A stretch of DNA of 64,000 bases from Candidatus Aminicenantota bacterium. GTDB lineage: Bacteria > Acidobacteriota > Aminicenantia > Aminicenantales > UBA8522. Below, one piece after another: positions 18,560 through 34,862 of this stretch (position 1 is its first letter; each line of letters begins with the position of its first letter). The DNA is taken from positions 33,419 through 97,418 of the forward strand of contig JAFNEO010000057.1 in the NCBI GenBank assembly GCA_017886205.1, given 5' to 3'. Position numbers and translations under genes: made by a program. The notes under the pieces were generated by a model. That model was given only the letters and a program-made list of their open reading frames with translations, made no database searches and had not been told where the DNA came from.

Positions 18560-20026
18560 CTAGGGCAGCGCGGGCAACGAGGCTATTCCATTGGCTTTAG
18601 CGTAGGCGGTCAAGATCCGGGTCAACTCGTTTCGGACATCCTTCTCCACGAGAGCGGGTGGGTTGGACCGCAGGATCTTTTCTACGTGTTCGGAAGCCCT
18701 GTCCGCGATCGGCTTTTTCCCCAGGGCCACCCAGGCGTCATAGGTATCCCTGTCCGCGATCACGGGATAGGAATGCTCCAACCGGTACCACTTTTTGGTG
18801 TGGGGCATGGAGAGAAATTGAGTCTCAGGGGTGAAGCCTTCGAACTTGTCCGTGGCGATCGGGTCCTCGCGCTGGGCGATCCCGGAGATCAGCCGGTAAG
18901 CCATGCCGCAGATCTCGTCGTCGATGACGAGTTTCTCCAGGCTTTGGCAGCTCTCGAAGTCGAGCATTCCGGGACCGGAGATGACGTTGACTCCGGCCAG
19001 GGCGCCGAGCACGGCCCCGAGCCCGGTCTCCAGCCCGGCCTGAGCGTCGTTTGTCTTGGCGTCGCTCAACCCCATATAGGCATGGGTCGGGAGGTTCAGG
19101 TATTTCCCGATCTGGGCATAGCCCACATCGATCATCATTGTCTCGATGGCTCCCATGGGGGTCGTCCCCCGCCTCATGTCGAAACTCGAGGGCGAGCCCC
19201 CGAAGATCACCGGCGCGCCCTTCTTGGCGAGCTGGACGATGGCGACGCCGCAGAGGTTTTCAGCGACGTGCTGGACCAGGGTGCCCGAGATGGTCACCAG
19301 AGAGGTGGCGCCGGTCATGCCCATTGAAATCAGCTCGGAGGGGAGGCCCGCGCGGGCCGCATCAATGAGGCTCTGGGTGGTGAGGTTGCTCCACTTGAGC
19401 GGCGGGGATGGACAGGCATCGAAGATGGCCAGGGGCTTCGCGGCCAGCTCTTTGTCGCCGCCCCGGACGGCCGCCAGGAGATCCTTCATCGGCCGGAAGG
19501 ACTCCACCCTGAAGGTGCCCGTCACGACGGGCTTCCGCGAGAAGACGAGGCCGAAGTAAAGCCTGTAGATGTCGGCGATCGGATGGGGAACATCGGAGCT
19601 GATCAAGCCCGTGCTCTGGAAATGGATGTTGTCCAGGCATTCGGTCAGCCGGCAGTAATCCACCAGGTCCTTGGTCTCCGGCTTTCTTTCTTCTCCCGTC
19701 TTATGGTCGAGGATCGTGACGGCCGCTGAACCCGGGTCGAAATGGACCTCGTCGCCGCCGACCGTGTATTCCCTTTCTCCCGTCCGGTCGTAGAGCTTGA
19801 TGACGGCCGGGGCTGTGGTCAGGCATTTTTCGACCAGGCGGCGCTTCAGATGGACGCGGTGCGTTTTTTTCTCCACCTTCATTCCCGCCTGGCTGAAAAG
19901 CTTCAGGGCCTCTTTGTTCTCGACGAAAATCCCCTGTTTGTCCAGGATCTCATAGGCCTCATCGATGATTTTCTCAATGAACCGGCGGCTCAACAATTCG
20001 AGTTTCGGTCTGATTGTCTTGATCAT
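18560..20026 (-). CDS. Trimethylamine methyltransferase (MttB) superfamily protein, non-pyrrolysine
   Basis: 488 aa; SRRFIEKIIDEAYEILDKQGIFVENKEALKLFSQAG...; ISMGMTGATSLVTISGTLVQHVAENLCGVAIVQLAKKGAPVIFGGSPSSFDMRRGTTPMGAIETMM. Confidence 0.9.
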   Translation of the reverse strand: MIKTIRPKLELLSRRFIEKIIDEAYEILDKQGIFVENKEALKLFSQAGMKVEKKTHRVHLKRRLVEKCLTTAPAVIKLYDRTGEREYTVGGDEVHFDPGSAAVTILDHKTGEERKPETKDLVDYCRLTECLDNIHFQSTGLISSDVPHPIADIYRLYFGLVFSRKPVVTGTFRVESFRPMKDLLAAVRGGDKELAAKPLAIFDACPSPPLKWSNLTTQSLIDAARAGLPSELISMGMTGATSLVTISGTLVQHVAENLCGVAIVQLAKKGAPVIFGGSPSSFDMRRGTTPMGAIETMMIDVGYAQIGKYLNLPTHAYMGLSDAKTNDAQAGLETGLGAVLGALAGVNVISGPGMLDFESCQSLEKLVIDDEICGMAYRLISGIAQREDPIATDKFEGFTPETQFLSMPHTKKWYRLEHSYPVIADRDTYDAWVALGKKPIADRASEHVEKILRSNPPALVEKDVRNELTRILTAYAKANGIASLPALP

Positions 20027-20072
20027 CTGTTTTCCTTCGCTTTGGCTTGACGTCGGGACACCGGCGGCAGCG

Positions 20073-20723
20073 TCAGGCCCCCATCAGCCGCTTGGCCAAT
20101 TTGACCGCGAGCATGGCGTTTTCCGCATACCCGTCGGCCCCGATCTCCTCGGCCCATTTCTGATTGGCGGGCGCTCCGCCCACAAGGACCTTGAATTTCC
20201 CGTATAGGTTCTTCTGTCTGAGCAGCTCGATGGCCTTCTTCTGCCCCAGCATGGTCGTGGTCAGCAGGGCCGAAAGGCAGATGAAATCGGCCTTGGTCTC
20301 CTCGGCCTTCTCGATGAACTTCTCCAGCTTGACATCGGCGCCGAGGTCGACGACGTCGAACCCGTTGGCCGAGAGCATCGAGGCGACGAGGTTCTTGCCG
20401 ATATCGTGGATGTCTCCTTCGACCGTGCCGATCACGACCTTGCCTTTAGTCTTTGTCTTGATGTTCGCCTTGTCCAGCTCGGGCTGGAGGACCGCCATCG
20501 CCGCCTTCATGCACTCGGCGCTGGTGATGAGCTCGGGCAGGAAGTAATCGCCCTTTTCCCACAGGTCGCCGACCTTCTGAATACCTGGAACATATCCTTT
20601 TTCAATGACTTCGGTGAGGTCGATTTTGGCCTTGACCGCCTCCCGGGCGAGGTCTTCGGCCTCGGATTTGCGGCCTTCGATGATCGCCTTCTCGATCCTG
20701 GCAAACAATTCCTCTTTCTTCAT
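20073..20723 (-). CDS. Methyltransferase cognate corrinoid protein (MttC/MtbC-like)
   Basis: Start refined to MKKEELFARIEKAIIEG; VVIGTVEGDIHDIGKNLVASMLSANGFDVVDLGADV (DxHxxG); B12-binding C-terminus. Confidence 0.93.
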   Translation of the reverse strand: MKKEELFARIEKAIIEGRKSEAEDLAREAVKAKIDLTEVIEKGYVPGIQKVGDLWEKGDYFLPELITSAECMKAAMAVLQPELDKANIKTKTKGKVVIGTVEGDIHDIGKNLVASMLSANGFDVVDLGADVKLEKFIEKAEETKADFICLSALLTTTMLGQKKAIELLRQKNLYGKFKVLVGGAPANQKWAEEIGADGYAENAMLAVKLAKRLMGA

Positions 20724-20778
20724 CACTGCTCCTTTCCCGGATTTATAAGCCTCCATGATATCCAACACAGAGAATAAA

Positions 20779-21666
20779 TCAACCCTCTTTTTTGACGATG
20801 AAAGCCATGCGGCGAATGTAGTCGGGGTTCGTCCCGCAACAGCCGCCGACGACGTTCGCTCCGTTCGCGATGATCTTGGGAATATGCTGGAGATAACTCT
20901 CCAATCCCTGCGAGTAAGAGACTTCGCCTTCGCTGGAAAGCGAGGGCTTCCCGGCATTGGCCTGGGCGATCAAGGGAAGTCGGGTTATTTCTCTCATCGC
21001 CTTGACCAGGTCCGCCATGTCCGAGCTGTCCAGGGTGCAGTTGGCGCCCACCGCGGGCACTCCTTCTTTTTCCAGCTCCTGGAGGCATTGGGAGGCGCTG
21101 TTTCCCATGAGGGTGAAGAATCCTCTAGGAACCCGGTTGTAGGTCATAGTCACAAAAACCGGCAGGGCCGCGACCTTCCGGGCTGCCCGGAGAGCGCAGA
21201 GCGCTTCTCTCAGGTCGTACTGAGTTTCAATCAAAAGGAAATCGACCTTCCCGTCGGCCAGTCCCCTGGCCTGCTCGGCGAAAGCGGCCTCGAACATCGG
21301 TTCCGTGAACTCGCCCTGCGGCTGGAGAAATTTCCCGGTGGGCCCGATGCTTCCGCCGACGAACCCGCCCTTGGGTTTGACCTCGTTGGCGATCGTGGCC
21401 GCCGCTTTGTTCAGTTCATAGCACCTCTTGTCCTGGCCGTGGGAGGCCAGCTTGATCGTGCTCCCCCCGAAGCTGTTGGTCAGGACAGCGTCCGAGCCGG
21501 CATCGAAATAGCTCTTGTGGATCTCCTTGACGACTTCGGGCCGTTCCACGTTCCAGGTCTCGGGACAGGCTCCCTGGGGAAATCCCCTCTGGATGAGCTC
21601 GGTCCCGAACCCGCCGTCGAGGAGCACCCTCCGTTTCCGGATCAACTCCAGGATCGTCAGGCTCAT
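20779..21666 (-). CDS. Stand-alone homocysteine S-methyltransferase domain (MetH N-terminal/BHMT type)
   Basis: RRVLLDGGFGTELIQRGF; VGANCTLDSSD and VGGCCGTNPDYIRRM zinc-ligand motifs. Confidence 0.88.
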   Translation of the reverse strand: MSLTILELIRKRRVLLDGGFGTELIQRGFPQGACPETWNVERPEVVKEIHKSYFDAGSDAVLTNSFGGSTIKLASHGQDKRCYELNKAAATIANEVKPKGGFVGGSIGPTGKFLQPQGEFTEPMFEAAFAEQARGLADGKVDFLLIETQYDLREALCALRAARKVAALPVFVTMTYNRVPRGFFTLMGNSASQCLQELEKEGVPAVGANCTLDSSDMADLVKAMREITRLPLIAQANAGKPSLSSEGEVSYSQGLESYLQHIPKIIANGANVVGGCCGTNPDYIRRMAFIVKKEG

Positions 21667-21688
21667 TCTCTTCCTCCTTTGAGATTTC

Positions 21689-23611
21689 TCAATCGTCAAG
21701 CCTCTTACCGGGCCTGAGGAACTTTTTTACCGAAGGGAAAAGTCCGATGTCCGTGTGGGGCAAAAAGAGAGAGCCCGTGTACTCGTTCATATAGCCCGGC
21801 TCCGCGTTCAACTCGATGTAAGTCATCTTTCCGGCGATCGCATTGACCAACTCCCGGTTCTTTTCCGAGAGCAGGACGAGATAGGCCCCGCTGAGAGAAG
21901 TGTTCCCCAGATAATGGAATTTCTCCCGGTCTAGGTCGGGCAAGAGGCCGATGCGGATGGCGTTGTCCACGTCAAGATGCTGTCCGAAGCCTCCCGCGAT
22001 GTAAACGGCGTCCAGCTGGTCAAAGGTCAGGCCGATGTTTTTCAGAAGGAGGGCGCAGGCGGAAAATATCGCGCCCTTGGTCCGGATCAGGTTGGTGATA
22101 TCTTTTTCAGTGAGGATGAGGTCCCGGCCCCAATAAGAGCGGGGGGCCTTTTCGACCAGGAATCCCGTCCCCTCCCCGTTCCGGACGAGCCTCTTCCCCG
22201 CCCTTTCCTGGTCCAGCTTTCCGCTGCGGTCGAGATAGCCATGGACAAAAAGCCCGGCCAGAAGGTCGACGAGTCCCGAGCCGCACAGCCCCTTGGGTTT
22301 GCCTCCCCCGATGACCCGGTAGGCGAGGTCGCCGCTCTTGGAGATGGTCACGGCCTCGATCGCGCCCTCGATGGCCGGAAGGCCGCACTTGGTCCCGCCG
22401 CCCTCGAAGGCCGGGCCGGCCGAACAGGCGCAGGTAGCCAGCCAGTCTCTGTTGCCGATGACCAGTTCGCCATTTGTGCCGGCGTCGATGAAGAGAGACG
22501 TTTTTTCCGCGTCCCGGAGGATAGGAGTCGAGAGAAGCCCGGCGGTAATGTCCCCGCCGACATAGCTGCCGACGGCCGGAGCACAGTGGACCCTGGCTTC
22601 GGGGTTGACGTTCAGGCCGAGGTCAGACGCCTTAACCATAGGGACCAGGTTCATGGTCGGGATGTAGGGCTCTTCCCGGATGAATCGGGGGTCAAGGCCG
22701 AGAAGAAGGTGGGTCATCGTCGTGTTGCCGGCCACGGAGACATAATAGATGTCGTCGCTCGATATCCCGGCCTCCCGGCAGGATTTCTCGGCCAGGGCGT
22801 TGATCGTCTGGACGGCGAGGGTCTGCAGTTCCTGAAGTCGGCCCGGCCTTCTGGCATAGTCGATCCTCGAGATCACGTCCTCGCCGCAGCGCAGCTGCTG
22901 ATTAAACCCCGTCGTGGTGCTCAGAACCCTGCCGTCCTCGAGGTCGGCGATCTCGCAGACAACCGTGGTGGTGCCGATGTCACAGGCCAGGCCGCAGAGG
23001 TTCTTAGAGGGCGGGTTGGGCTGGAGATCCACAAGGGTCCAGCCGGGCCCGGTCTTGACCAGGATGGCCGTCACCTCTCCCTCCTTTTCCCTCACCGCTG
23101 CGGCCAGCTTTTTCAGGACGCGATGTTCGGCCTGGAGGCAGCGGAGCCCCTTCTCTTTATGGATCTGCCGCTGCAGCCGGCGGAGGTCGCTCGAGTTGTC
23201 GGAGAGAGTCGCCGCGGGGACGGAAACCTGGATCTTCCGGACAACCGGGTTGACTTCGAAAACCCCGGAGATCCGGTCGCGGTGCTCTTCGAAGAAGCGC
23301 GAGCCGGCCACCGTGCGGATCGACTGCTCTTCAAACCTCGGCAATTCGACGGTGAGATCTTCCTCGATCTCAGTCTGACAGGCTAAGGCGTATCCCAAAC
23401 GCCGCACCTCCTCGGGAAGGGCCGCCGAGGTCCGGATCCTGGCCTCCCCGCCTTCGATACGGACCAGACACTCGCCGCAGGTCCCTTTTCCGCCGCAGGT
23501 CGATTTGAGAGGCAGCCCGGCCTTTCTGATGGCGTCCAAAAGATTGGTCCCGCGGGCGAAGGAGTGGGTACTCCGGAAAGGCAGGAATTCAACCTTGAAG
23601 GCCTTTCTCAT
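21689..23611 (-). CDS. RACo-like corrinoid protein reductive activator (2Fe-2S ferredoxin + ASKHA ATPase)
   Basis: N-terminal STCGGKGTCGECLV ferredoxin motif; GLACDIGTTTVVCEIADLEDGRVL; LFIDAGTNGELVIGNRDWLATCACSAGPAFEGGG. Confidence 0.92.
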   Translation of the reverse strand: MRKAFKVEFLPFRSTHSFARGTNLLDAIRKAGLPLKSTCGGKGTCGECLVRIEGGEARIRTSAALPEEVRRLGYALACQTEIEEDLTVELPRFEEQSIRTVAGSRFFEEHRDRISGVFEVNPVVRKIQVSVPAATLSDNSSDLRRLQRQIHKEKGLRCLQAEHRVLKKLAAAVREKEGEVTAILVKTGPGWTLVDLQPNPPSKNLCGLACDIGTTTVVCEIADLEDGRVLSTTTGFNQQLRCGEDVISRIDYARRPGRLQELQTLAVQTINALAEKSCREAGISSDDIYYVSVAGNTTMTHLLLGLDPRFIREEPYIPTMNLVPMVKASDLGLNVNPEARVHCAPAVGSYVGGDITAGLLSTPILRDAEKTSLFIDAGTNGELVIGNRDWLATCACSAGPAFEGGGTKCGLPAIEGAIEAVTISKSGDLAYRVIGGGKPKGLCGSGLVDLLAGLFVHGYLDRSGKLDQERAGKRLVRNGEGTGFLVEKAPRSYWGRDLILTEKDITNLIRTKGAIFSACALLLKNIGLTFDQLDAVYIAGGFGQHLDVDNAIRIGLLPDLDREKFHYLGNTSLSGAYLVLLSEKNRELVNAIAGKMTYIELNAEPGYMNEYTGSLFLPHTDIGLFPSVKKFLRPGKRLDD

Positions 23612-23626
23612 CTCTCTATCGTCGTC

Positions 23627-24964
23627 CTACACCAACTTCACGCTTTTCACAAAAGAGGGGATGTCGGCAGCTTCCTGACAGCCGACGATGACTTCCCAGC
23701 CCGGAAGTTTCTCCTCCAGTTCTCCAGAGATCTGAGCCACAAACCCGGGGATGACGATTTTTCGGGTTTTGACCTTCTCCTCGAGCTTGATATCTTTGAT
23801 GAACTTGGCGATCTTTTCCGGGACGAATTTTCCTCCGGCCCAGGCTGTCAATACAGACTGCCCTTCGGTATCGCAGACCACAAGATGGGCCGAGGTTCCC
23901 GAGTTTTCGATCTCTCCCGAGACGATGAAATAGGTCAGGGAGAAGTTAGTCGTCACGAATATGGGCGAATCCGGAGTCGGGTCACCGATGGCGTAGATTT
24001 TGGGATCGACCTGGATCGGCTTCTGGGGATCGGTGTAGATGTTCTGCCGGAGGGTGAAGAGGGTGAAGAGCAAAGCCTTGTCAAACCGGGGCAGGATGAT
24101 GATCGAAGTGTATTTGCATAGGAGGGCGGCCGCCGCGGCCAGCGACTCGAACCCGTCTTCGTCCGCAACCCGGGCGAAAAGGGGGAAACCGAAAGGCTTG
24201 AAGTTCTTCTTGAGAGCGCTCCGCCTCAGGATGGCGTTGTTCTGAATCGCCGCTCCCAGTCCCTCGCCCTGGCAGTTCAGGATGAGGTTCGTCAGGCCCG
24301 CCTGCCTGGCTTTTTCTGTCTGATCGGCCAGTTCCTGGTGAGACGATGCGGTGATGACCAGGCTTGCGCCGGAGTCTTTGGCCATTTCTATGTCTTTTTC
24401 GGTCAATGGCCTTCGCAGGCAAATCGCGGGCCGGTCGTCACGGAGAAGCTCCAGTCCCTCCTTCAAGGCCTCTTCCTGCGGGCAGTCGATGACCAGACCC
24501 TTGGTCGAATTCGCTTTAGCCAGGGAAATAGTCCTCAGGAAAGCCGCCTTCTCCGCTGAATCGTGGGAGACAAAAAAGAGGTTGGCCTTCAAGACCTCAC
24601 CCACCCGGTCAGCCTGATAGCTTTCCAGCCGCCGAATGTCCTTTAGGATTTTATCCTCTCCCTGCGAAGTCCGGATCTCCACTCCGATTCCCGTGGGGTG
24701 AAAAAAAGTCTTCTCATGGCGGAAGAGGACCGTCTCGCCTCCGACCTCCAGCCCGTTCCCGCCGCCGATCTTGACCAGCCGGACCGGGGGCTCGCCGGCC
24801 GCCCCCAGTGCCGCTTTGGCCTCTTCAGAGGCATGGGGACAGCTGGAAAGCTCGGCCTTTTTCTGGGCGATCTTCATGGCAAAGGCCATGCAGGTGGGCA
24901 CACCGCAGTCCCCGCAGTTCGTCTTGGGCAGGAGCTTGAAGATATCAAGCCCGGAGAGAGCCAT
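23627..24964 (-). CDS. acsC: Corrinoid iron-sulfur protein large (gamma) subunit
   Basis: MALSGLDIFKLLPKTNCGDCGVPTCMAFAMKIAQKKAELSSCPHASEEAK, CFeSP 4Fe-4S motif. Confidence 0.95.
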   Translation of the reverse strand: MALSGLDIFKLLPKTNCGDCGVPTCMAFAMKIAQKKAELSSCPHASEEAKAALGAAGEPPVRLVKIGGGNGLEVGGETVLFRHEKTFFHPTGIGVEIRTSQGEDKILKDIRRLESYQADRVGEVLKANLFFVSHDSAEKAAFLRTISLAKANSTKGLVIDCPQEEALKEGLELLRDDRPAICLRRPLTEKDIEMAKDSGASLVITASSHQELADQTEKARQAGLTNLILNCQGEGLGAAIQNNAILRRSALKKNFKPFGFPLFARVADEDGFESLAAAAALLCKYTSIIILPRFDKALLFTLFTLRQNIYTDPQKPIQVDPKIYAIGDPTPDSPIFVTTNFSLTYFIVSGEIENSGTSAHLVVCDTEGQSVLTAWAGGKFVPEKIAKFIKDIKLEEKVKTRKIVIPGFVAQISGELEEKLPGWEVIVGCQEAADIPSFVKSVKLV

Positions 24965-25943
24965 GGCCTCCCTCCTTATTGGGATGGAACATCTCGGCGA
25001 TCTGCTTCCGGACAACCTTCACCGCCTGGGGGTGGTCCATGATGAGCAGGTCCGCACCGGCGATGAGCAGGCTCATCGCCGTGGCGATCTCCCAGTAGGC
25101 GCCCCGCCGCTTCTCGTCCCCCCAATGGGGGTTGTCCTTTTCCGTGGCCCTGGCTTCTTTGACCTTGGCGCACTCGGCGCCGGGGGTAATGAGCATCGGG
25201 AAGCCCAGCATCCGGTCGCCGGCCAGGCCTTCATTCCGGATTCTTTCCATGATGGAATAGGAATACTCCAGCCCGTAGCCCAGCGCCCCGGTCAGGGGGT
25301 CCATCACCAGCCGGTCCTGAGGGAAGTTTATGTCGGTCAGGAGGATATTTAGCTGTTTGGCCAGGTTGACGTCGATGGGCGTCTGGGCGACGAGCGTATG
25401 ATGATAGGCCAGGCAGGCCGCGGCGATCGTCTTGTAGTTGTTCGTCTCGACATAGTTGATCAGGCAGTTCTCGCCGGCCGTAGCCTCGCAGACTTTCTTC
25501 ATGACCTCGTTGTTTTTTTCGAAATGGCTGTGCCCGGTGATGATCAACGGGACCTCCACCGCGGCCAGGACATCCTTAACTACTTCGACGGCTTCCTCGG
25601 TGCTCCGGCCGCCCTTTTCGGGGTGGGTCCCCTCGAGGCGGACGCTGACCATCTCGGCCCCGAAATCGGCGACACATCGCCGGGCCATCTCTCCGGGCTT
25701 GTCCAGGACGTCCTGGTAATATTCCCGAAGTGAATCCGGGTACTTGGCCGGGGCTTTGTCGAAGACCTCCATGGCCACGACGGGACGGTGGGGATGCAGT
25801 CCTTCGAAGAAATGAAAAGGCAGGGCCGTGCTCCCACCGATCGTCACGGACCGCGAGCGCGTCCCACCCTGGTCCGATGTCGCGCCGATGGTCACCTCGA
25901 TGATCTTTCCGGGGTTGGTTTCTCTGGGTATTTCAAAGGTCAT
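24945..25943 (-). CDS. acsD: Corrinoid iron-sulfur protein small (delta) subunit
   Basis: IEVTIGATSDQGGTRSRSVTIGGSTALPFHFFEG; MDPLTGALGYGLEYSYSIMERIR. Confidence 0.94.
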   Translation of the reverse strand: MTFEIPRETNPGKIIEVTIGATSDQGGTRSRSVTIGGSTALPFHFFEGLHPHRPVVAMEVFDKAPAKYPDSLREYYQDVLDKPGEMARRCVADFGAEMVSVRLEGTHPEKGGRSTEEAVEVVKDVLAAVEVPLIITGHSHFEKNNEVMKKVCEATAGENCLINYVETNNYKTIAAACLAYHHTLVAQTPIDVNLAKQLNILLTDINFPQDRLVMDPLTGALGYGLEYSYSIMERIRNEGLAGDRMLGFPMLITPGAECAKVKEARATEKDNPHWGDEKRRGAYWEIATAMSLLIAGADLLIMDHPQAVKVVRKQIAEMFHPNKEGGHGSLRA

Positions 25944-25955
25944 GGGTCGACTCCC

Positions 25956-26708
25956 TCACGGGTCCAGACTGTCCATCATCCGGTCGACGGCCAGGCAGGC
26001 CGGAGAGCTCGCTCCGACCGACCAGATCGGGATCCCCTCCCGGTCCATTTTCAAGAGCGTGTCGTCCTCTGGGATCGTGGCCAGGAGGGCGAACTTTTCT
26101 TCGCGGATGGCGGCTTCGACGGTGTTCGACACCGGTCCGGCGACCCGGTTGAGGACGAGATACCTGCGGCCGACGCGGGTCTCGAGCTCCCGGAGAAGCC
26201 GGCTGATTTTTCCGGCCGTGGCGATCCCCCGGGCTGTGGCGTCAGAGATGATCAGGAGATAATCGATGGCCTGGCTCGTCCGCCGGCTCAAATGCTCCAT
26301 CCCGGCTTCGTTGTCGATCACCACGTAGTCATAGTTCCCGGCCAGCGTCCTGAGGATATCCTGGAGCAGGTTGTTGGCATAGCAGTAGCATCCCGGACCC
26401 TCCGGCCGGCCCATGGCGATCAAGTCGAAGTCCGGACCTTCCACCAGGCTCGTCTGAATCTTGTACTCGAGGAACTGCTGTTTGGTCATCCCTCCGGGGA
26501 GGTCGGCGATCCGCGTCCTCATCTCTTCCCGGATGGCGCCGACCGTCTCCTTGAGGCGGACGCCGAGCAGGTCATTGAGGTTGACGTTGGAGTCGGCATC
26601 CACCGCCAGGATGGACCGGCTCTTCCTCTCGCTCAGCCAGCGGATGATCAGGGCGGCCGTGGTCGATTTCCCCGTCCCCCCTTTTCCGGCGATGGCGATC
26701 GTCTTCAT
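25956..26708 (-). CDS. cooC: CooC-type Ni-insertion/maturation ATPase
   Basis: MKTIAIAGKGGTGKSTTAALIIRWL; YDYVVIDNEAGMEHLSRRT. Confidence 0.9.
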   Translation of the reverse strand: MKTIAIAGKGGTGKSTTAALIIRWLSERKSRSILAVDADSNVNLNDLLGVRLKETVGAIREEMRTRIADLPGGMTKQQFLEYKIQTSLVEGPDFDLIAMGRPEGPGCYCYANNLLQDILRTLAGNYDYVVIDNEAGMEHLSRRTSQAIDYLLIISDATARGIATAGKISRLLRELETRVGRRYLVLNRVAGPVSNTVEAAIREEKFALLATIPEDDTLLKMDREGIPIWSVGASSPACLAVDRMMDSLDP

Positions 26709-26723: not shown

Positions 26724-28928
26724 TCAAAACAGGGGAGGCATGGACAGCGCCGGATGATTCATCTTGGTGATGTAGGCCAGCACCTCCTCTTCGGTCACGG
26801 CCACGGTCTCGTCGGCGATCATCTCCCAGAAATTTTCGATCCCCTCGCCCCGGCCGATCTTGCGCAGCTCCGGCGCCAACTCTTCCTTGAGGTCCCGGTT
26901 CATCCAGACGACCCGCTTGGCCCCGCCTTCGGCGCTGATGAACTTGCCGCTGGCGACATAACGCTTGCTGTGGCCGATGAACCCGGGCGTCTGCAGGCCG
27001 CCTCCGACCGTCCCGGCCAGGGTCGAAAACTTCATGCCGCTCGGCGTCATGCCCGGGAAATTCCGGTAGACCGTCATGATGCCGTTGGTGGACGGGAGGA
27101 CGCAAGAGATGCATTCGAAGCAGCCGCAGGAAGTCATGGGATTGTCGATGATGCTGTAGGCGCTGAAGAGCTGGAGCGTCTTGTGGGAAGCGTTAAAGAC
27201 GAACTCGTTGATCCCCTGCCACTGGCCTCTGGCTGCGTCGACGACCTGGGCTTTCAGGATGGGCTGGTTGGGGCCGGTGGGGTTGATCTGGTGGGCGGCC
27301 TTGCCGTCGAGCCAGTTGTAGGCTCCGCAGAGGCCGGAGCGCTCCGGTGTGATGACGCAGACATGATTCGGCGCAAAGGACTGGCAGAGGGTGCAGGAAT
27401 AGAAGGTCTCTACGGCCTCGTCGGTCAGCCCGGCCAGGCGTTCATCGCGCCGGCGGTAGGCCTTCCGGGCAGTCTCGATCAGGTCCATGATCTCTTTCTC
27501 CCGCGTGTAGATCTTCACCTGGACCTTGTCCACGATCTTCCCGAATTCCCCGTGGATCTTGGCATGGATGATCGACCCGAAGTGCCGGAACCGCAATCCT
27601 TTGTCCTTGGCCTCCTTGCTGACCCTGACCCAGTTGATATCCCGCTGTCCCATGTGAAAAACGCCGTGGGCCATGTTCATAAAATCGTGCAGGCGCCGTT
27701 CCAGGATGGGCTCGAAATCGGCCTGCATCTGACGGCCGGCGACTTCCACCCAGAAGGCCAGGGGGAGTTGGCTCCCTTCGGCCACTTCGTCGATCTCCGG
27801 CCCGACAACCTCGATCTTGCCGTCCTCGACTTCCTCCATGCCCTTCCCGGTCAAGTATTCAAACCCGTGCTTTTCCGTTCCGGCCAGCTCGACGTACATG
27901 TCTTCTTTGCGGATCCTCTCTCCCTGAAAGGCGGGGCCGAACGGGACGGGAATCGGGACTCTGGTCACCGTGATCTTAAGGCCCCGGACCTCGATGGCCT
28001 TGGAGACGATCCGGTCATGAGGGACAGGAGAGACGACATGTTCATAGGTACAGATTCCCGTCGGCAGGATGTTGTCGATGTCTGTATCGGCGATCGTCGG
28101 GAACCCGTAATTGATGGCCCCGGCCGCCTGGGCATGCTTTTCGTCATCGACCGGGCCGAGGGCCAGGACAAAGGCGAACACCCGGTTCTTGTTATAGCGG
28201 AGGACGCGCTGGTAATCACCGGGCTGGGCCCCGCCGAAGGAGAGGGCCACCCGGGTCGAAAACCCGAGGGCATGGATGGTGGCGGTGACGTCGTCGCCGA
28301 AGGGCACAAGCCGCGTCTCCCAGCCCATCTCGATCCCCTCTTCGGCCAGTTGCCGGGCCATGGATTTTCCTTCCGTGGCCGCCGACATGAAGACGTAGAG
28401 GTTTTTTTCCTGGAGCTCGCGGGCGATCCTGACCGCGATTTCGTTGGTCGGGCAGTAGCCGACGCAGGCGGCAAACCCGGGCGCGGTGTTGTCGACGAAC
28501 TCGATGCCCCTCTCGCGCATGATGACGTCGTTGGCCGCTCCCAGCCAGAGATGGCCCTCTTTCGGGTGGGTTTCAGGAAGATACGGCAGGGGAGTCCGGG
28601 TGTACTTGACGGCCTCGATGATCTCGTCGGCAAAGAGTGTCGCCATGCCGGCGTCGAGAGTGTTCCCGAGATAAGGGAGCCAAAGGTTTTCCGAGGGGAC
28701 CGGGGGCAGCAGCTCCTTGGCCTCGGCCAGCAAGTCCAGGAGCCCGCCCAGAGTTTCGATTCGGAGCCCTAAGATCCCATGCGATATGGGAAGATAGTAG
28801 CCCGTGTTCGGGAATTCGACCCGGGTGTCCGGACCTTTCTCGGCGATGGCGGCGGCGAGCTCCCGTTCGGCCCGGGCCACCAGCTTATGGGCGCCCCGGA
28901 TGGCCCTGGTGGCGATTATCCTGGACAT
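26724..28928 (-). CDS. acsB: Acetyl-CoA synthase (CODH/ACS alpha subunit, bacterial full-length)
   Basis: SCTLCQSFAPNHVCVITPERSGLCGAYNWLDGKA and GCFECISCVLPSTNGIMTVYRNFPGMTPSGMKFSTLAGTVGGGLQTPGFIGH (A-cluster region). Confidence 0.97.
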   Translation of the reverse strand: MSRIIATRAIRGAHKLVARAERELAAAIAEKGPDTRVEFPNTGYYLPISHGILGLRIETLGGLLDLLAEAKELLPPVPSENLWLPYLGNTLDAGMATLFADEIIEAVKYTRTPLPYLPETHPKEGHLWLGAANDVIMRERGIEFVDNTAPGFAACVGYCPTNEIAVRIARELQEKNLYVFMSAATEGKSMARQLAEEGIEMGWETRLVPFGDDVTATIHALGFSTRVALSFGGAQPGDYQRVLRYNKNRVFAFVLALGPVDDEKHAQAAGAINYGFPTIADTDIDNILPTGICTYEHVVSPVPHDRIVSKAIEVRGLKITVTRVPIPVPFGPAFQGERIRKEDMYVELAGTEKHGFEYLTGKGMEEVEDGKIEVVGPEIDEVAEGSQLPLAFWVEVAGRQMQADFEPILERRLHDFMNMAHGVFHMGQRDINWVRVSKEAKDKGLRFRHFGSIIHAKIHGEFGKIVDKVQVKIYTREKEIMDLIETARKAYRRRDERLAGLTDEAVETFYSCTLCQSFAPNHVCVITPERSGLCGAYNWLDGKAAHQINPTGPNQPILKAQVVDAARGQWQGINEFVFNASHKTLQLFSAYSIIDNPMTSCGCFECISCVLPSTNGIMTVYRNFPGMTPSGMKFSTLAGTVGGGLQTPGFIGHSKRYVASGKFISAEGGAKRVVWMNRDLKEELAPELRKIGRGEGIENFWEMIADETVAVTEEEVLAYITKMNHPALSMPPLF

Positions 28929-28958: not shown

Positions 28959-30893
28959 TCAAACCTCCAGCTGTCTTCTCATCTCCATGTCGAACAGCAC
29001 GCGTTCCTTGCCCTTGCCGATGCCCAGCTTTTCCCGTTTGGCGTGAATATGATCGATGATCAGGCCGGCTATCTTGGTTTGATCGGGCTGAGCCGCCCAG
29101 TGGCCGCCGAAAAGGTCCTTGTACTCTTCGAAGATGTGGCGGCAAAAGAGCTCGCTTCCGGTGACCGGGAGGCCGATGCCGAAGACCGTGAAGACTCCGG
29201 AGGCGACGAAGTACTGTCCGATGGCAATCGCCTTCTCGCTCATCCACTCAGGAGCCGCGCCGGCCACCGGCAGGTCGCTGATGTCCTGACCCAGCCCCCC
29301 GACCTTGACCATCTCGGACAGGGCGATCAGGATGCGGCTGTTGTCGACGCACGACCCGGAGTGGAGAACCGGGGGCATGCCGACAGCCCGGCAGACCTCA
29401 GCCAGCCCTTTGCCGGCGTGCTTGACGGCCGATTCCGGAGTTAGGAACCCGGCCTTGGCGCAGGCGATGGCGGAACAGCCGGTCTGGACGACCAGGATGT
29501 CGTTGGCGATGAGCTCTTCGACCAGGCCGACGTGTCCTTTGTCATGGGTCGTCTTGGGGTTGGAGCAGCCGACCACCCCGGCGACTCCCTGGATCCGGCC
29601 GTTGATGATGTTGTCGTTGAGGGGCACGTAGGAACCGCGAAAAGAGCCGCCGAGCATGTAGGTGATGGCTTCATGGCTGAAACCGGCGACCAGGTCCATC
29701 TTGTCCCGGGGGATGTCGACCGCACCCCGATTGGCGTAGTTGGCGATGGCCTCCCGGACGATCGTCCGGGCACCTTGATAAGCGTTCTCCGCTTGAATAT
29801 TCATGGACCGGGCCCCCTCGATCTTGGCCTTGGGCGAAGTGGTGATGAGCAGGGTGTGGAAATTTTTGCAGAGCTGGGGCAGTGACGGCATGATACACTG
29901 GACGTCGACGATCATGGCGTCGACCGCGCCCGTGGCCACGGCCAGCTCCTGCTGCAGGACGTTCCCGGCGATCGGCAGCCCGTGCCGGATAAGGACCTCG
30001 TTGGCCGTGCAGCAGATCCCGGCCAGGGTGATTCCAGTCGCTCCCGCCGACCGCGCGAGATCCAGCAGCTCCTTGTCCCTCGCGGCCAGGGCGAGCATTT
30101 CAGAAAGAACGGGCTCGTGTCCGTGGACCACCACGTTGACGTCGGTTTTAGAGAGGACGCCGAGGTTGACCTGCCCGCGGATCGGGGACGGCGTCCCGAA
30201 CAAGATGTCCTGGAGTTCGGTGGCGACCATCGAGCCGCCCCAACCATCGGCTAAAGCCGTCCGGGCGCCATGGAGCATGATGTTGCGGTGGTCCTGGTCC
30301 ACTCCCATGCTCGTCCGGTGGATCATCTCCACGACTTCGCGGTCGATCCCCCGCGGCACGATGCCGAGTTTGCGCCAGATGGCCTGGCGCTTCTCCGGGG
30401 CCACTTTGATAAAGGAGATCTCGCCCTCCTGCCGACCGAAATCCGCCAGGGCGCGCTCGGCCACCTCGAGGGCCATCTTCTCCTTGGGCTTGTCCTGGAT
30501 GGAGATGCCGAAGACTTGAGCGACCCGCTTAAGCTTCCGGACATCGCGGATCGCATAGCCGGAATCGGGGTTCGTGGCCGCCAGAAGCAGGGTCTTGGCC
30601 ACCTCCCGTCCATGGTCGGAGTGAGCGGCCGTCCCGGAGGCGATCATCTTGGCAAAATTCCGGGCGACGATCACTTCGGCGGTCGCGCCGCAGACGCCCT
30701 TTTGCGGCTTTTTTCCGGTCGGGTTGATGCGGCAGGGCCCCATATAGCAGGCCCGGCAGCAGAGCCCCCGCTCGCCATACACGCAGTGGGGCTTCTGCTC
30801 GTCGGCCCTGTCCCAGATCGTCTCCAGGCCTCGGGTTTTGGCGTGTTCGAGCATCTCGTTGACCGTGCTGTCAATGCTTTTCGGGTTCGACAT
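28959..30893 (-). CDS. cooS: Anaerobic Ni carbon monoxide dehydrogenase catalytic subunit
   Basis: CVYGERGLCCRACYMGPCRINP; VGVLSKTDVNVVVHGHEPVLSEM-type motif; GVVGCSNPKTTHDKGHV; start refined to MSNPKSIDSTVNEML. Confidence 0.97.
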   Translation of the reverse strand: MSNPKSIDSTVNEMLEHAKTRGLETIWDRADEQKPHCVYGERGLCCRACYMGPCRINPTGKKPQKGVCGATAEVIVARNFAKMIASGTAAHSDHGREVAKTLLLAATNPDSGYAIRDVRKLKRVAQVFGISIQDKPKEKMALEVAERALADFGRQEGEISFIKVAPEKRQAIWRKLGIVPRGIDREVVEMIHRTSMGVDQDHRNIMLHGARTALADGWGGSMVATELQDILFGTPSPIRGQVNLGVLSKTDVNVVVHGHEPVLSEMLALAARDKELLDLARSAGATGITLAGICCTANEVLIRHGLPIAGNVLQQELAVATGAVDAMIVDVQCIMPSLPQLCKNFHTLLITTSPKAKIEGARSMNIQAENAYQGARTIVREAIANYANRGAVDIPRDKMDLVAGFSHEAITYMLGGSFRGSYVPLNDNIINGRIQGVAGVVGCSNPKTTHDKGHVGLVEELIANDILVVQTGCSAIACAKAGFLTPESAVKHAGKGLAEVCRAVGMPPVLHSGSCVDNSRILIALSEMVKVGGLGQDISDLPVAGAAPEWMSEKAIAIGQYFVASGVFTVFGIGLPVTGSELFCRHIFEEYKDLFGGHWAAQPDQTKIAGLIIDHIHAKREKLGIGKGKERVLFDMEMRRQLEV

Positions 30894-30937: not shown

Positions 30938-31978
30938 TCAGGATCTCAGCCGCCGGCTCACCTCGCCCAAGTGAGCAAAAACCTTCTCGGATATATCTAA
31001 GGGAAGAGAACCGGTTCCGCAGCTCGGAGTGACCAGGCACTTTTCCCAGATCAGGCTCTTCGGGACGCCCTTGCCGGCCAGGTTATCGACGGCGGAGCGC
31101 AACCGTCCGAGCAGGGTATCCGGGGTTTCCGCCGCGATCTTGGCCGAAGTCGGAACGATGCCCCAGGCCAGAACCCCGCCTCTCTCCAGATAATCCTTTA
31201 TTGGACCAGAATAGTAGGCGATGGTCTCCCCGTACTCGAAGGCATCAAAGCTGATGACGTCCGTTCCGGCATCGACGAGGATCGTCCATTCGGTGTTCCC
31301 GCAGCAGTGGATTCCGGCCAGGCCGCCCTCTTTGTGAACGGCCGATATGACGTCCCGCAGGTATTGGACGACGTCGGAGCGCTGGACGCTGACATAGGTC
31401 GAGGAGCCGAAGGCCGAGAGGATCGGCTCGTCGATGAAGCAGAGCTGCGGCACCCCCAGTCCCTGGAAATGCCTCAACATCCAGCGGGCCTTCATCTCTG
31501 TGCCTTTGACCACCACATCCCGCATCATCTCGTTGTAATAGATGGAGCGCTTATTTTCGTCCGTGCGGCCCAGGCCGACGGTGATGGGGCCGGTCACGTG
31601 GTTCTTAAAGTACCGGAGAACGGCCGGTTTCTGCGCGGTCAGAATTCTCTCCATCTCGTAGATGCCCCGGCTGAAACCCGGAGAGATCTGGAAGTAGTCG
31701 AGGTTCTCGGACATATAGTTCTCATAGAACTTCTCCAGTCCCGAGGTGATATCCCCGCCGGTATCGAAGTGCATCCTCCGGCCGATGGGATCAAGGACGA
31801 CGCCGGGCAGACCCTCCGAGTACTGAATCTCCATGCTTTCCCGAAAATCCATGGCCGGCAGCTGCGGCCAGATCGGGATTTCCGGGATGCTGTCGAGGAT
31901 GACCCGGCAGGCCGCCTCAGGGTTCCGGTGGGGCAGGCTGCCGATGGCCGTGGCCAGGCCTTGAGGGTTGAAGCTCAT
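30938..31978 (-). CDS. UROD/core-MetE-like zinc methyltransferase (candidate folate-independent methionine synthase or corrinoid methyltransferase)
   Basis: AGIHCCGNTEW (HxC) followed 24 residues after H by E in FDAFEYGE, then TPSCGTGSL; resembles the MetE zinc-ligand pattern; lacks MetE N-terminal duplication. Confidence 0.75.
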   Translation of the reverse strand: MSFNPQGLATAIGSLPHRNPEAACRVILDSIPEIPIWPQLPAMDFRESMEIQYSEGLPGVVLDPIGRRMHFDTGGDITSGLEKFYENYMSENLDYFQISPGFSRGIYEMERILTAQKPAVLRYFKNHVTGPITVGLGRTDENKRSIYYNEMMRDVVVKGTEMKARWMLRHFQGLGVPQLCFIDEPILSAFGSSTYVSVQRSDVVQYLRDVISAVHKEGGLAGIHCCGNTEWTILVDAGTDVISFDAFEYGETIAYYSGPIKDYLERGGVLAWGIVPTSAKIAAETPDTLLGRLRSAVDNLAGKGVPKSLIWEKCLVTPSCGTGSLPLDISEKVFAHLGEVSRRLRS

Positions 31979-32093: not shown

Positions 32094-32885
32094 CTAAGAT
32101 TGAGTCAGTCGACTTTCCCCGACGAGTCCCCGGAAGACGGCCGTGAATTCCTTCCGGAGACGGTCATCCAGAACGTCGATGAGCGGCTGTTCATTCCGGT
32201 CGGCGTCCCGGATCGCCTCGCTGTAGGGGATCATGCCCAAAATGAGGGAGGGGGGAAAATGAGCGCGGATCCAGCGTTCCTGGTCTTCATCCTGGACCTT
32301 ATTTCCGATGACCCGAAATTCCTCGAGGCCGATCTCCCGGGAGAGCTTCATAATGGTCAGAGCCGTGTCGATGCTCCGGGAGCCGGGCTCGACGACGATG
32401 ATCATTTCCTGGATTGCCGAGGCGGTGGCCCGGCCCAGGTGTTCGATCCCGGCCTCCATGTCGACGATGACGGCTTCGTCCCGGTGGAGGATGATCTCGG
32501 AGAGCAGGCTCTTGAGCAAGACATTCTCCGGACAGGCACACCCCTCCCCTCCCTTTCGTACGGCCCCCATGACCAACAGCTTGATGCCCCGAAAACGGAA
32601 CGAGTATTCCTCGGGGATATCATCGACACGGGGGTTCATCTTGAACAGCTGGCCGAACTGCCGGGGAGAAGCGCCCGTTCTTTCCTTGATCAGCTCCCTC
32701 TGGTGAGAGATGGACACGATCTTGGCCGCGTCGGATTTGGGAATGCCCAGGGCAGAGGCCAAGTTGGCGTCGGGGTCGGCATCGACGGCCAGGACCTTGT
32801 AGCCGTTCTGGACAAAATAATGAGCCAAAATGCCGGCGATCGTGGACTTGCCGACTCCGCCTTTTCCGGATATCGCGATCTTCAT
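32094..32885 (-). CDS. cooC: Second CooC-type ATPase
   Basis: MKIAISGKGGVGKSTIAGILAHYFVQNGYKVLAVDADPDANLASALG; VIVDMEAGIEHLGRATA. Confidence 0.92.
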   Translation of the reverse strand: MKIAISGKGGVGKSTIAGILAHYFVQNGYKVLAVDADPDANLASALGIPKSDAAKIVSISHQRELIKERTGASPRQFGQLFKMNPRVDDIPEEYSFRFRGIKLLVMGAVRKGGEGCACPENVLLKSLLSEIILHRDEAVIVDMEAGIEHLGRATASAIQEMIIVVEPGSRSIDTALTIMKLSREIGLEEFRVIGNKVQDEDQERWIRAHFPPSLILGMIPYSEAIRDADRNEQPLIDVLDDRLRKEFTAVFRGLVGESRLTQS

Positions 32886-32895
32886 CCTCTCTCCC

Positions 32896-33534
32896 TCAAA
32901 CCTTGGACAGCAGTCTTTTGACCAACTCCAGGGCGGACGCGGCGTCGGGTGCGTAGCCGTCGGCCCCGATCTCGTCAGCGTAGGACCGCGTCACGGGAGC
33001 GCCTCCGATCGCAATCCGGACCCGGCGTCTGAGCCCGGCGTGTTCCACGGCTTCGACGACCTCCCTCATGTAGGACATCGTCGTCGTCAGCAGCGCAGAC
33101 AGCCCGAGGACGGACGGCCGGTTCGTCTTGATCGCCCGGACGATGTTGCCCATGGAGACATCGATTCCCAGGTCGATCACCTCGTACCCGGCTCCCTCGA
33201 GCATCATCCCGACGATCTTTTTGCCGATATCGTGGAGGTCCCCCTTGACCGTGGCCAGGATGATCCGACCTCGGAGATGGGCCCGGTCGGAGGAAAAGAG
33301 CGGGCGGAGAATCTCCAGGCCCACATTCATCGCCCGGGACGCGATCAGGACTTCCGGGATGAAGACCTCGTTGCTCTTGAACTTCTCCCCGACCGCCGAC
33401 ATCCCCTGGACAAGACCATCGTCCAGGATCTTCTCCGGGCAATGTCCCTGGGAAAGCGCCTTCCTGGTCAGTTCCTTGATCTTGGCCGAATCCCCGGCTT
33501 CGACGCTCGCCGCGATCTCGGTCAGGGTCCGCAT
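32896..33534 (-). CDS. Corrinoid (B12-binding) methyl-carrier protein
   Basis: IILATVKGDLHDIGKKIVGMMLEGAGYEVIDLGIDV (DxHxxG), GLSALLTTTM. Confidence 0.93.
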   Translation of the reverse strand: MRTLTEIAASVEAGDSAKIKELTRKALSQGHCPEKILDDGLVQGMSAVGEKFKSNEVFIPEVLIASRAMNVGLEILRPLFSSDRAHLRGRIILATVKGDLHDIGKKIVGMMLEGAGYEVIDLGIDVSMGNIVRAIKTNRPSVLGLSALLTTTMSYMREVVEAVEHAGLRRRVRIAIGGAPVTRSYADEIGADGYAPDAASALELVKRLLSKV

Positions 33535-33562: not shown

Positions 33563-33596
33563 TTTGCTAGAAAACGCTCCGAGGAATTATACCAGA

Positions 33597-34862
33597 ATGG
33601 AGACCGGGAAAACCATAGCCGCGGCCAAGTTCAAATCTCTGGCCGAAGAGTACCGGCAGAAGACGGGCCTTCACCTCATCCTGGTCGACCTCAGGGGCAA
33701 AATCATCTCTGGGTCCGGGGGCTGTGACTTTTGTCGGAAGGCTGGTGCGGGCAGAGAGGAGAAGCTGGTTAAGAGCTGCCACCAGAAGATGGCCCAGGCC
33801 GTCGAGGAATCGTTCCGCTGGGGAGAGGGCTACATCACGACCTGCCCGCTGGGGTTTGTCCTCTTCGCCGTGCCCATCGTCCAGCACAGGAGACTCAGGG
33901 GGGGACTGATCAGCGGTTTCGCCATCTTTGCCGAGATGAAGGAGGATTTCGCCGAAGAGGTCTCCGCCAACTTGGCCAAGTTCGGCGCGGCCGCTAAGCC
34001 CCTCGGCCTCAACGCCAAGGGCATCAGGAACATTTCGCTCAAGAAAGCGAAAGAGGCCGTCTCCCAGTTGATGTCCCTGACCCAAAAGTACGAAATTAAC
34101 GACCTCGCTTTTTTGAAGGAGCGGAACGAAAAATACGTCCAGCAGTACAAGATCGCCAACTTCCTGGAGAAGCTGAAGAGGGAAAACCCCGACATCGCCC
34201 GGAAGATCCTGGACAAACAGGACGAGATCATCCAGAAGGTGAAGCTGGGAGACAGGGCCGGGGCCCGGGAGATCCTGAACGAATTCCTGGGATCGATTTT
34301 TTTTGAGAGCGGGATGAACTTCGAGGTGATCAAGGTCCGGATCATCGAGCTCATCGTCATCATTTCCCGGGCGGCCATCGAGGCCGGCGTCGGGGCGCAG
34401 GAGTTGCTCGGGCTCAACTATTCCTACTTGACCGAGCTCAGCAAAGTGACTGACCTGGAAGAGCTGCTCTTCAAGGTTACCCGGGTCCTGGAGAACTTCA
34501 TCGCCAAGGTCTCTCTGGGCAAGGAGAAAAAGCGGAAGGTCCGGTGCCAGAGGATGCGCGATTTCATCCACCGGAACTTCACCCGGAAGATCACCGCCCG
34601 GGACGTGGCCGAAGAGGCCGGACTCAGCGTCGGACGGGCCCTCCACCTGTTTCGAGAAGAAACGGGGATGGCCCTGACGGGCTATATCAACAAGATGAAG
34701 GTCGACTATGGGAAGTATCTTCTTCTGAACAGCGACATCCAGCTGGCGGAGCTGGCCGACCAGCTCGGCTACTATGACCAGAGCCATTTCACCAAGAATT
34801 TCAAGAAATTCGAGAAAATCACCCCCTCCCATTTTCGGTTGAGGTATAAGACGGAGATCTAG
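33597..34862 (+). CDS. PocR sensory domain + AraC-type HTH transcriptional regulator
   Basis: N-terminal FKSLAEEYRQKTGLHLILVDLRGKIISGSGGCDFCRKAG...CPLGFVLFAVPI (PocR-like); C-terminal DFIHRNFTRKITARDVAEEAGLSVGRALHLFREETGMALTGYINKMKVDYGKYLLL...GYYDQSHFTKNFKKFEKITPSHFR. Confidence 0.9.
   Translation: METGKTIAAAKFKSLAEEYRQKTGLHLILVDLRGKIISGSGGCDFCRKAGAGREEKLVKSCHQKMAQAVEESFRWGEGYITTCPLGFVLFAVPIVQHRRLRGGLISGFAIFAEMKEDFAEEVSANLAKFGAAAKPLGLNAKGIRNISLKKAKEAVSQLMSLTQKYEINDLAFLKERNEKYVQQYKIANFLEKLKRENPDIARKILDKQDEIIQKVKLGDRAGAREILNEFLGSIFFESGMNFEVIKVRIIELIVIISRAAIEAGVGAQELLGLNYSYLTELSKVTDLEELLFKVTRVLENFIAKVSLGKEKKRKVRCQRMRDFIHRNFTRKITARDVAEEAGLSVGRALHLFREETGMALTGYINKMKVDYGKYLLLNSDIQLAELADQLGYYDQSHFTKNFKKFEKITPSHFRLRYKTEI

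Follow-up and report, generated by a model that had tools for sequence, protein, structure and literature searches.

The closest known system to the protein studied here is the core-MetE enzymes of the MesB type, represented by cbdbA481 of D. mccartyi (PMC7005905, PMC7857596). These are proteins of a reported ~38 kDa, without a folate half and linked to CFeSP and the Wood–Ljungdahl pathway. The zinc ligands of the D. mccartyi enzyme are His215, Cys217, Asp236 and Cys312, which places the Asp 21 residues after the His (PMC7005905); characterized MesB is likewise reported with Asp at that ligand position (PMC7857596). It has been proposed that methyl-CFeSP from acetyl-CoA cleavage feeds the core-MetE of D. 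mccartyi (PMC7005905). For MesB in general, CFeSP as the direct methyl donor is a proposal that is unproven in the literature cited here (PMC7005905, PMC7857596). The published cut-off for MesB lies at ~29% identity / 130 bits or more against the D. mccartyi protein (A0A0V8M4G6), and Price et al. caution that homologues distant from MesB may differ in function (PMC7857596). Two further systems are relevant: the Mtg system of marine bacteria, in which MtgE, MtgC and MtgB make up a split methionine synthase and betaine demethylase (PMC12478193), and the MtaA/MtbA coenzyme M methyltransferases, which belong to the same superfamily as our protein and have the HxC motif in common with it.

The window (the whole 64,000-nucleotide stretch of Candidatus Aminicenantota DNA that was analysed) contains an intact open reading frame for a 346-residue core-MetE-like protein, hereafter the target protein, whose ATG is preceded by the purine-rich leader GAGAGAGG. 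The host genome is 3.5 Mb and 93% complete. No Pfam or NCBIfam model matches the target protein, PF01208 and PF01717 included. It resembles MesB in size, in its HxC...D(+21)...C ligands, in having no folate half and in being found with CFeSP/ACS, both by operon and by co-occurrence; it differs in its conserved operon with HMT, two CooC, CooS and AcsB and in escaping PF01717, a comparison drawn from published descriptions and ligand positions. The gene lies in an unbroken minus-strand run, CorrP1-CooC1-target-CooS-AcsB-CooC2-AcsD-AcsC-AcsV-HMT-CorrP2-MttB (Table 1), and the flanking by cooC and cooS given in an earlier sequence-only reading is correct. We use "operon" for such a conserved co-directional cluster, known here from gene order alone. 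CorrP1 is next to the target gene in Aminicenantes loci only, and the divergent PocR-sensor regulator is kept in other Aminicenantes (L006, L007, L027). At 18560-21699 (minus strand), HMT, an MtgC-like corrinoid protein and MttB adjoin AcsV, so that a Mtg-type set for methyl transfer to homocysteine sits within the CODH/ACS gene run. The likeness to the Mtg system is one of the target's neighbours; MtgE belongs to PF02574, which the target does not match.

Table 1. Features of the gene run and the adjoining regulator in the window
Feature	Description	Position	Strand
MttB	MttB-family methyltransferase	18560..20026	-
CorrP2	second MtgC-like corrinoid protein, start set by eye	20073..20723	-
HMT	stand-alone homocysteine S-methyltransferase (PF02574), NC...GGCC zinc motif, start set by eye	20779..21666	-
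AcsV	corrinoid reductive activator	21689..23611	-
AcsC	CFeSP large subunit, start set by eye	23627..24964	-
AcsD	CFeSP small subunit	24945..25943	-
CooC2	second CooC-type ATPase	25956..26708	-
AcsB	acetyl-CoA synthase	26724..28928	-
CooS	Ni-CODH catalytic subunit, likely start ATG at 30893	28959..30893	-
Target	core-MetE-like, predicted Zn ligands H224/C226/D245/C320, predicted homocysteine contacts S14/D183	30938..31978	-
CooC1	CooC-type P-loop ATPase, neighbour of the target kept in most loci	32094..32885	-
CorrP1	MtgC/MtbC-like corrinoid protein	32896..33534	-
Regulator	PocR-sensor AraC family, divergent from the gene run	33564..34862	+

An AlphaFold model of the target protein, calculated with 22 orthologues as input, has a mean pLDDT of 87 and a pTM of 0.88; residues 132-144 and 189-196 are of low confidence. 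When the model was compared with the PDB by Foldseek, the nine highest-ranking entries were without exception MetE or MetE-like proteins (E as low as 1e-7), with moderate TM-scores of ~0.58. Sequence searches of the PDB (single target sequence, A1, A5) found no relative, and none was found in viral contigs and phages. A homologue in Tsukamurella (tblastn E 1e-7) itself matches PF01717 at 7e-12 and thereby ties the target to that family; its gene (L125:2974-3987) adjoins mnmA. Among the 22 orthologues one matches PF01717, at 0.0012. A protein encoded on a Desulfosarcina ovata plasmid is related to the target (tblastn 1e-36, 28% identity, 147 bits) and is not established as MesB. This plasmid homologue (L124:5974-7002, ~30% identical) is without the Ser motif, lies near genes for Hcp and the flavoprotein FprA, and probably has another function.

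The target protein could instead belong to the UROD family or be a coenzyme M methyltransferase of the MtaA/MtbA type. With shallow profiles, hhalign preferred a UROD set to a four-sequence MetE set, and aligned the target with UROD paralogues of its own genome at 84% probability across the 114 columns surrounding HCCG. The target nevertheless has no PF01208 match, MetE comes first in the fold search, and the GS.P and DEP motifs of MetE, present in the target, occur in none of the host UROD paralogues. A 22-row tree puts the target together with MetE and PF01717 proteins, and seven host UROD paralogues beyond a 100/99 branch. The tree has long branches and was built without MesA-D, MtaA, MtbA and heme UROD references, so we read it as settling the choice between MetE and UROD only. 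Within these limits the UROD-clade placement that had been named beforehand as fatal to the core-MetE assignment did not occur. We regard the UROD/coenzyme M reading as disfavoured by tree, fold and motifs, and highly improbable despite the hhalign signal; "UROD-fold-like", as the protein had been called, is apt at superfamily level only. Fold, tree and active-site residues uphold the core-MetE assignment, and the target almost certainly has a core-MetE fold and active site.

The residues were checked in a superfamily alignment with the E. coli MetE sequence as reference. Ser433, Asp599, His641, Cys643, Glu665 and Cys726 of MetE align with Ser-14, Asp-183, His-224, Cys-226, Asp-245 and Cys-320 of the target, so every zinc or homocysteine residue of MetE that can be aligned is present. 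The barrel of the MetE C-terminal catalytic domain has its counterpart in the modelled fold of the target; the two proteins differ in overall sequence (~18% identity), in Asp for Glu665, in the missing N-terminal half noted from the start, and in that Glu484 has no clear counterpart. The HCC motif (H224-C225-C226) and the downstream SCG (S319-C320-G321) are as first described. The Glu placed 24 residues after the His was chosen for that spacing. Glu-248 does stand at +24; however, the loop is three residues shorter in the target than in MetE, making Asp-245 (+21) the counterpart of Glu665. As a zinc ligand Glu-248 is ruled out: the MetE residue opposite it is Arg, and the position is not conserved, a homologue (genome G136) 38% identical to the target having Phe there. 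By contrast all six aligned residues are invariant in the 22 orthologues, which come from several phyla, and to judge from these sequences the conservation of this reading frame is not due to chance. With His/Cys/Asp/Cys and an H-D spacing of 21, the predicted zinc site is closest in design to that of MesB.

Orthologues are found in CODH/ACS operons of Treponema, Oscillospiraceae, Bacteroidota, Spirochaetaceae, Synergistaceae, Defluviitaleaceae, Phycisphaerae and others. Outside Aminicenantes the gene order, as far as contigs reach, is HMT-target-CooC-CooC-CooS-AcsB(-AcsD fused)-AcsC-AcsV. HMT adjoins the target gene in most loci and is absent from its side in three (L019, L023, L029); the divergent G136 homologue directly follows AcsD. 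Among 143 Aminicenantia genomes the target occurs in 25, AcsB in 23 and both in 19 (Fisher p=6e-15, with genomes counted as independent regardless of phylogenetic relatedness). Most of the exceptions are contig ends or fragmented or degraded copies: where a target-only locus has space left for neighbours, CooC, CooS or AcsV is still there, and the ACS-only loci stop short of the place expected for the target. The cross-phylum operon and the co-occurrence with AcsB together make the link to CODH/ACS very strong.

The 93%-complete host assembly, which has no PF01717 match at all, yielded neither a complete MetE nor a complete MetH; a complete MetH had also been named beforehand as a refuting observation. 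Canonical MetE was found in none of the 27 genomes that carry the target, and 15 of them (the host and 14 others) show neither it nor MetH. MetH is present in about nine of the 27, and in G045, G050 and G055 it is short, cut or broken. MTHFR is missing from 13 of the 27, and an AcsE-like protein (PF00809 of AcsE size) from several. Most of these genomes are incomplete MAGs, whose gaps weaken any single absence. Three carriers hold a different core PF01717 protein (L042:1420-2424, L043:1459-2466, L044:1456-2466), which has a DEANIPGNP motif and the full set of HCEC zinc ligands; its gene lies beside a probable ROK-type sugar kinase gene in L043 and L044.

We consider that the target protein is, on balance, a zinc-dependent core (MesB-like) methionine synthase which takes its methyl group from the CFeSP of the CODH/ACS pathway. 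This is the best functional reading because the family keeps its zinc and homocysteine residues unchanged and CFeSP accompanies it constantly; it draws on a modelled MetE-type barrel, predicted H-C-D-C ligands and homocysteine Ser/Asp, the lack of a folate half and a near-obligate CODH/ACS operon. Homocysteine would be bound by Zn2+ as the thiolate, whose attack on the corrinoid-bound methyl group of AcsCD, the CFeSP encoded alongside the target, would yield methionine and leave Co(I)-CFeSP. CFeSP may itself be methylated by way of the methyl branch; where the genome lacks MTHFR, AcsB may supply the methyl group by cleaving acetyl-CoA, cf. D. mccartyi; carriers without MTHFR, MetH or an AcsE-like protein resemble the situation of that organism. 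The methyl-corrinoid-to-homocysteine role first suggested for the target is supported in part; its methyl donor is inferred. About nine MetH-bearing carriers count against this reading. The main complication is that the co-operonic HMT, with its intact zinc motif, could be a methionine synthase. The host encodes, besides HMT with CorrP2 and MttB, an HMT-MTHFR fusion (at a contig end) and a MeTr-like protein, and its methionine synthesis therefore may not depend on the target alone.

The same fold and active site could serve a thiol methyltransferase with another donor or acceptor, for example an MtgC-like corrinoid protein or a different thiol. The Aminicenantes operon begins with just such a corrinoid protein, some Aminicenantes operons have an extra RACo-type activator, and the distant homologues in D. 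ovata (plasmid) and Tsukamurella (by mnmA) lie outside ACS clusters. Loci beyond Aminicenantes lack an adjoining corrinoid protein, however, ACS genes are nearly always close where the contig permits, and the Ser and Asp of the homocysteine pocket show no variation across the family; we judge this reading unlikely. That invariance, with that of the zinc ligands, bears equally on the idea that the target stands in for AcsE (methyl-THF or methyl-corrinoid to and from CFeSP) and HMT alone makes methionine. AcsE chemistry requires no zinc-thiolate site, the target has no folate-binding half, and carriers without MTHFR could supply no methyl-THF. The idea would account for the long operons in which no AcsE was seen (L107, L109, L111, L117), for the several carrier genomes without an AcsE-sized PF00809 protein and for HMT beside the target in most loci, but we think it has little chance of being right. 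Strict AcsE replacement is unsupported, since the host and some relatives (G040/G041) keep MeTr-like proteins elsewhere in the genome.

It is similarly improbable that methionine is made by a Mtg-type split route (HMT as MtgE-like, CorrP2 as MtgC-like and MttB as MtgB-like component, with MeTr elsewhere) and that the target assists CODH/ACS as a helper or in its assembly. HMT, CorrP2 and MttB are clustered in the window as a likeness of the MtgE/C/B of marine bacteria (PMC12478193), and cooC maturation genes surround the target in nearly all loci, yet a maturation factor would need no intact homocysteine and zinc site, and the three loci without an adjacent HMT show the two genes to be separable.

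Going beyond the methyl-CFeSP methionine synthase reading, it is possible, if doubtful, that the target represents a fifth core methionine synthase group, built into CODH/ACS operons of several phyla. In lineages without MTHFR and AcsE the operon might then be an acetyl-CoA-fed generator of methionine methyl groups, with HMT and the target as alternative homocysteine ports on methyl-corrinoid proteins. If the target is a methyl-CFeSP-fed methionine synthase, folate-independent methionine synthesis would reach many anaerobic phyla that seem to have no methionine synthase, and there would be genetic ground for testing CFeSP as a direct methyl donor. The family itself, missed by Pfam and NCBIfam, is a marker of CODH/ACS operons.

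Some further features of individual loci were observed. The single-contig Aminicenantes genome G040 has two copies of the target gene (L179:8920-9975 and L180:9073-10113), one in an intact ACS cluster, the other where the ACS genes look decayed. In genome G084 a degraded copy with stop codons (L147:1555-1923) has an AcsV-like gene alongside. AcsB and AcsD form one fused protein of ~1150 residues (L107:13801-17268, L117:6284-9838), in Treponema by family scan and in Bacteroidota carriers as judged from length.
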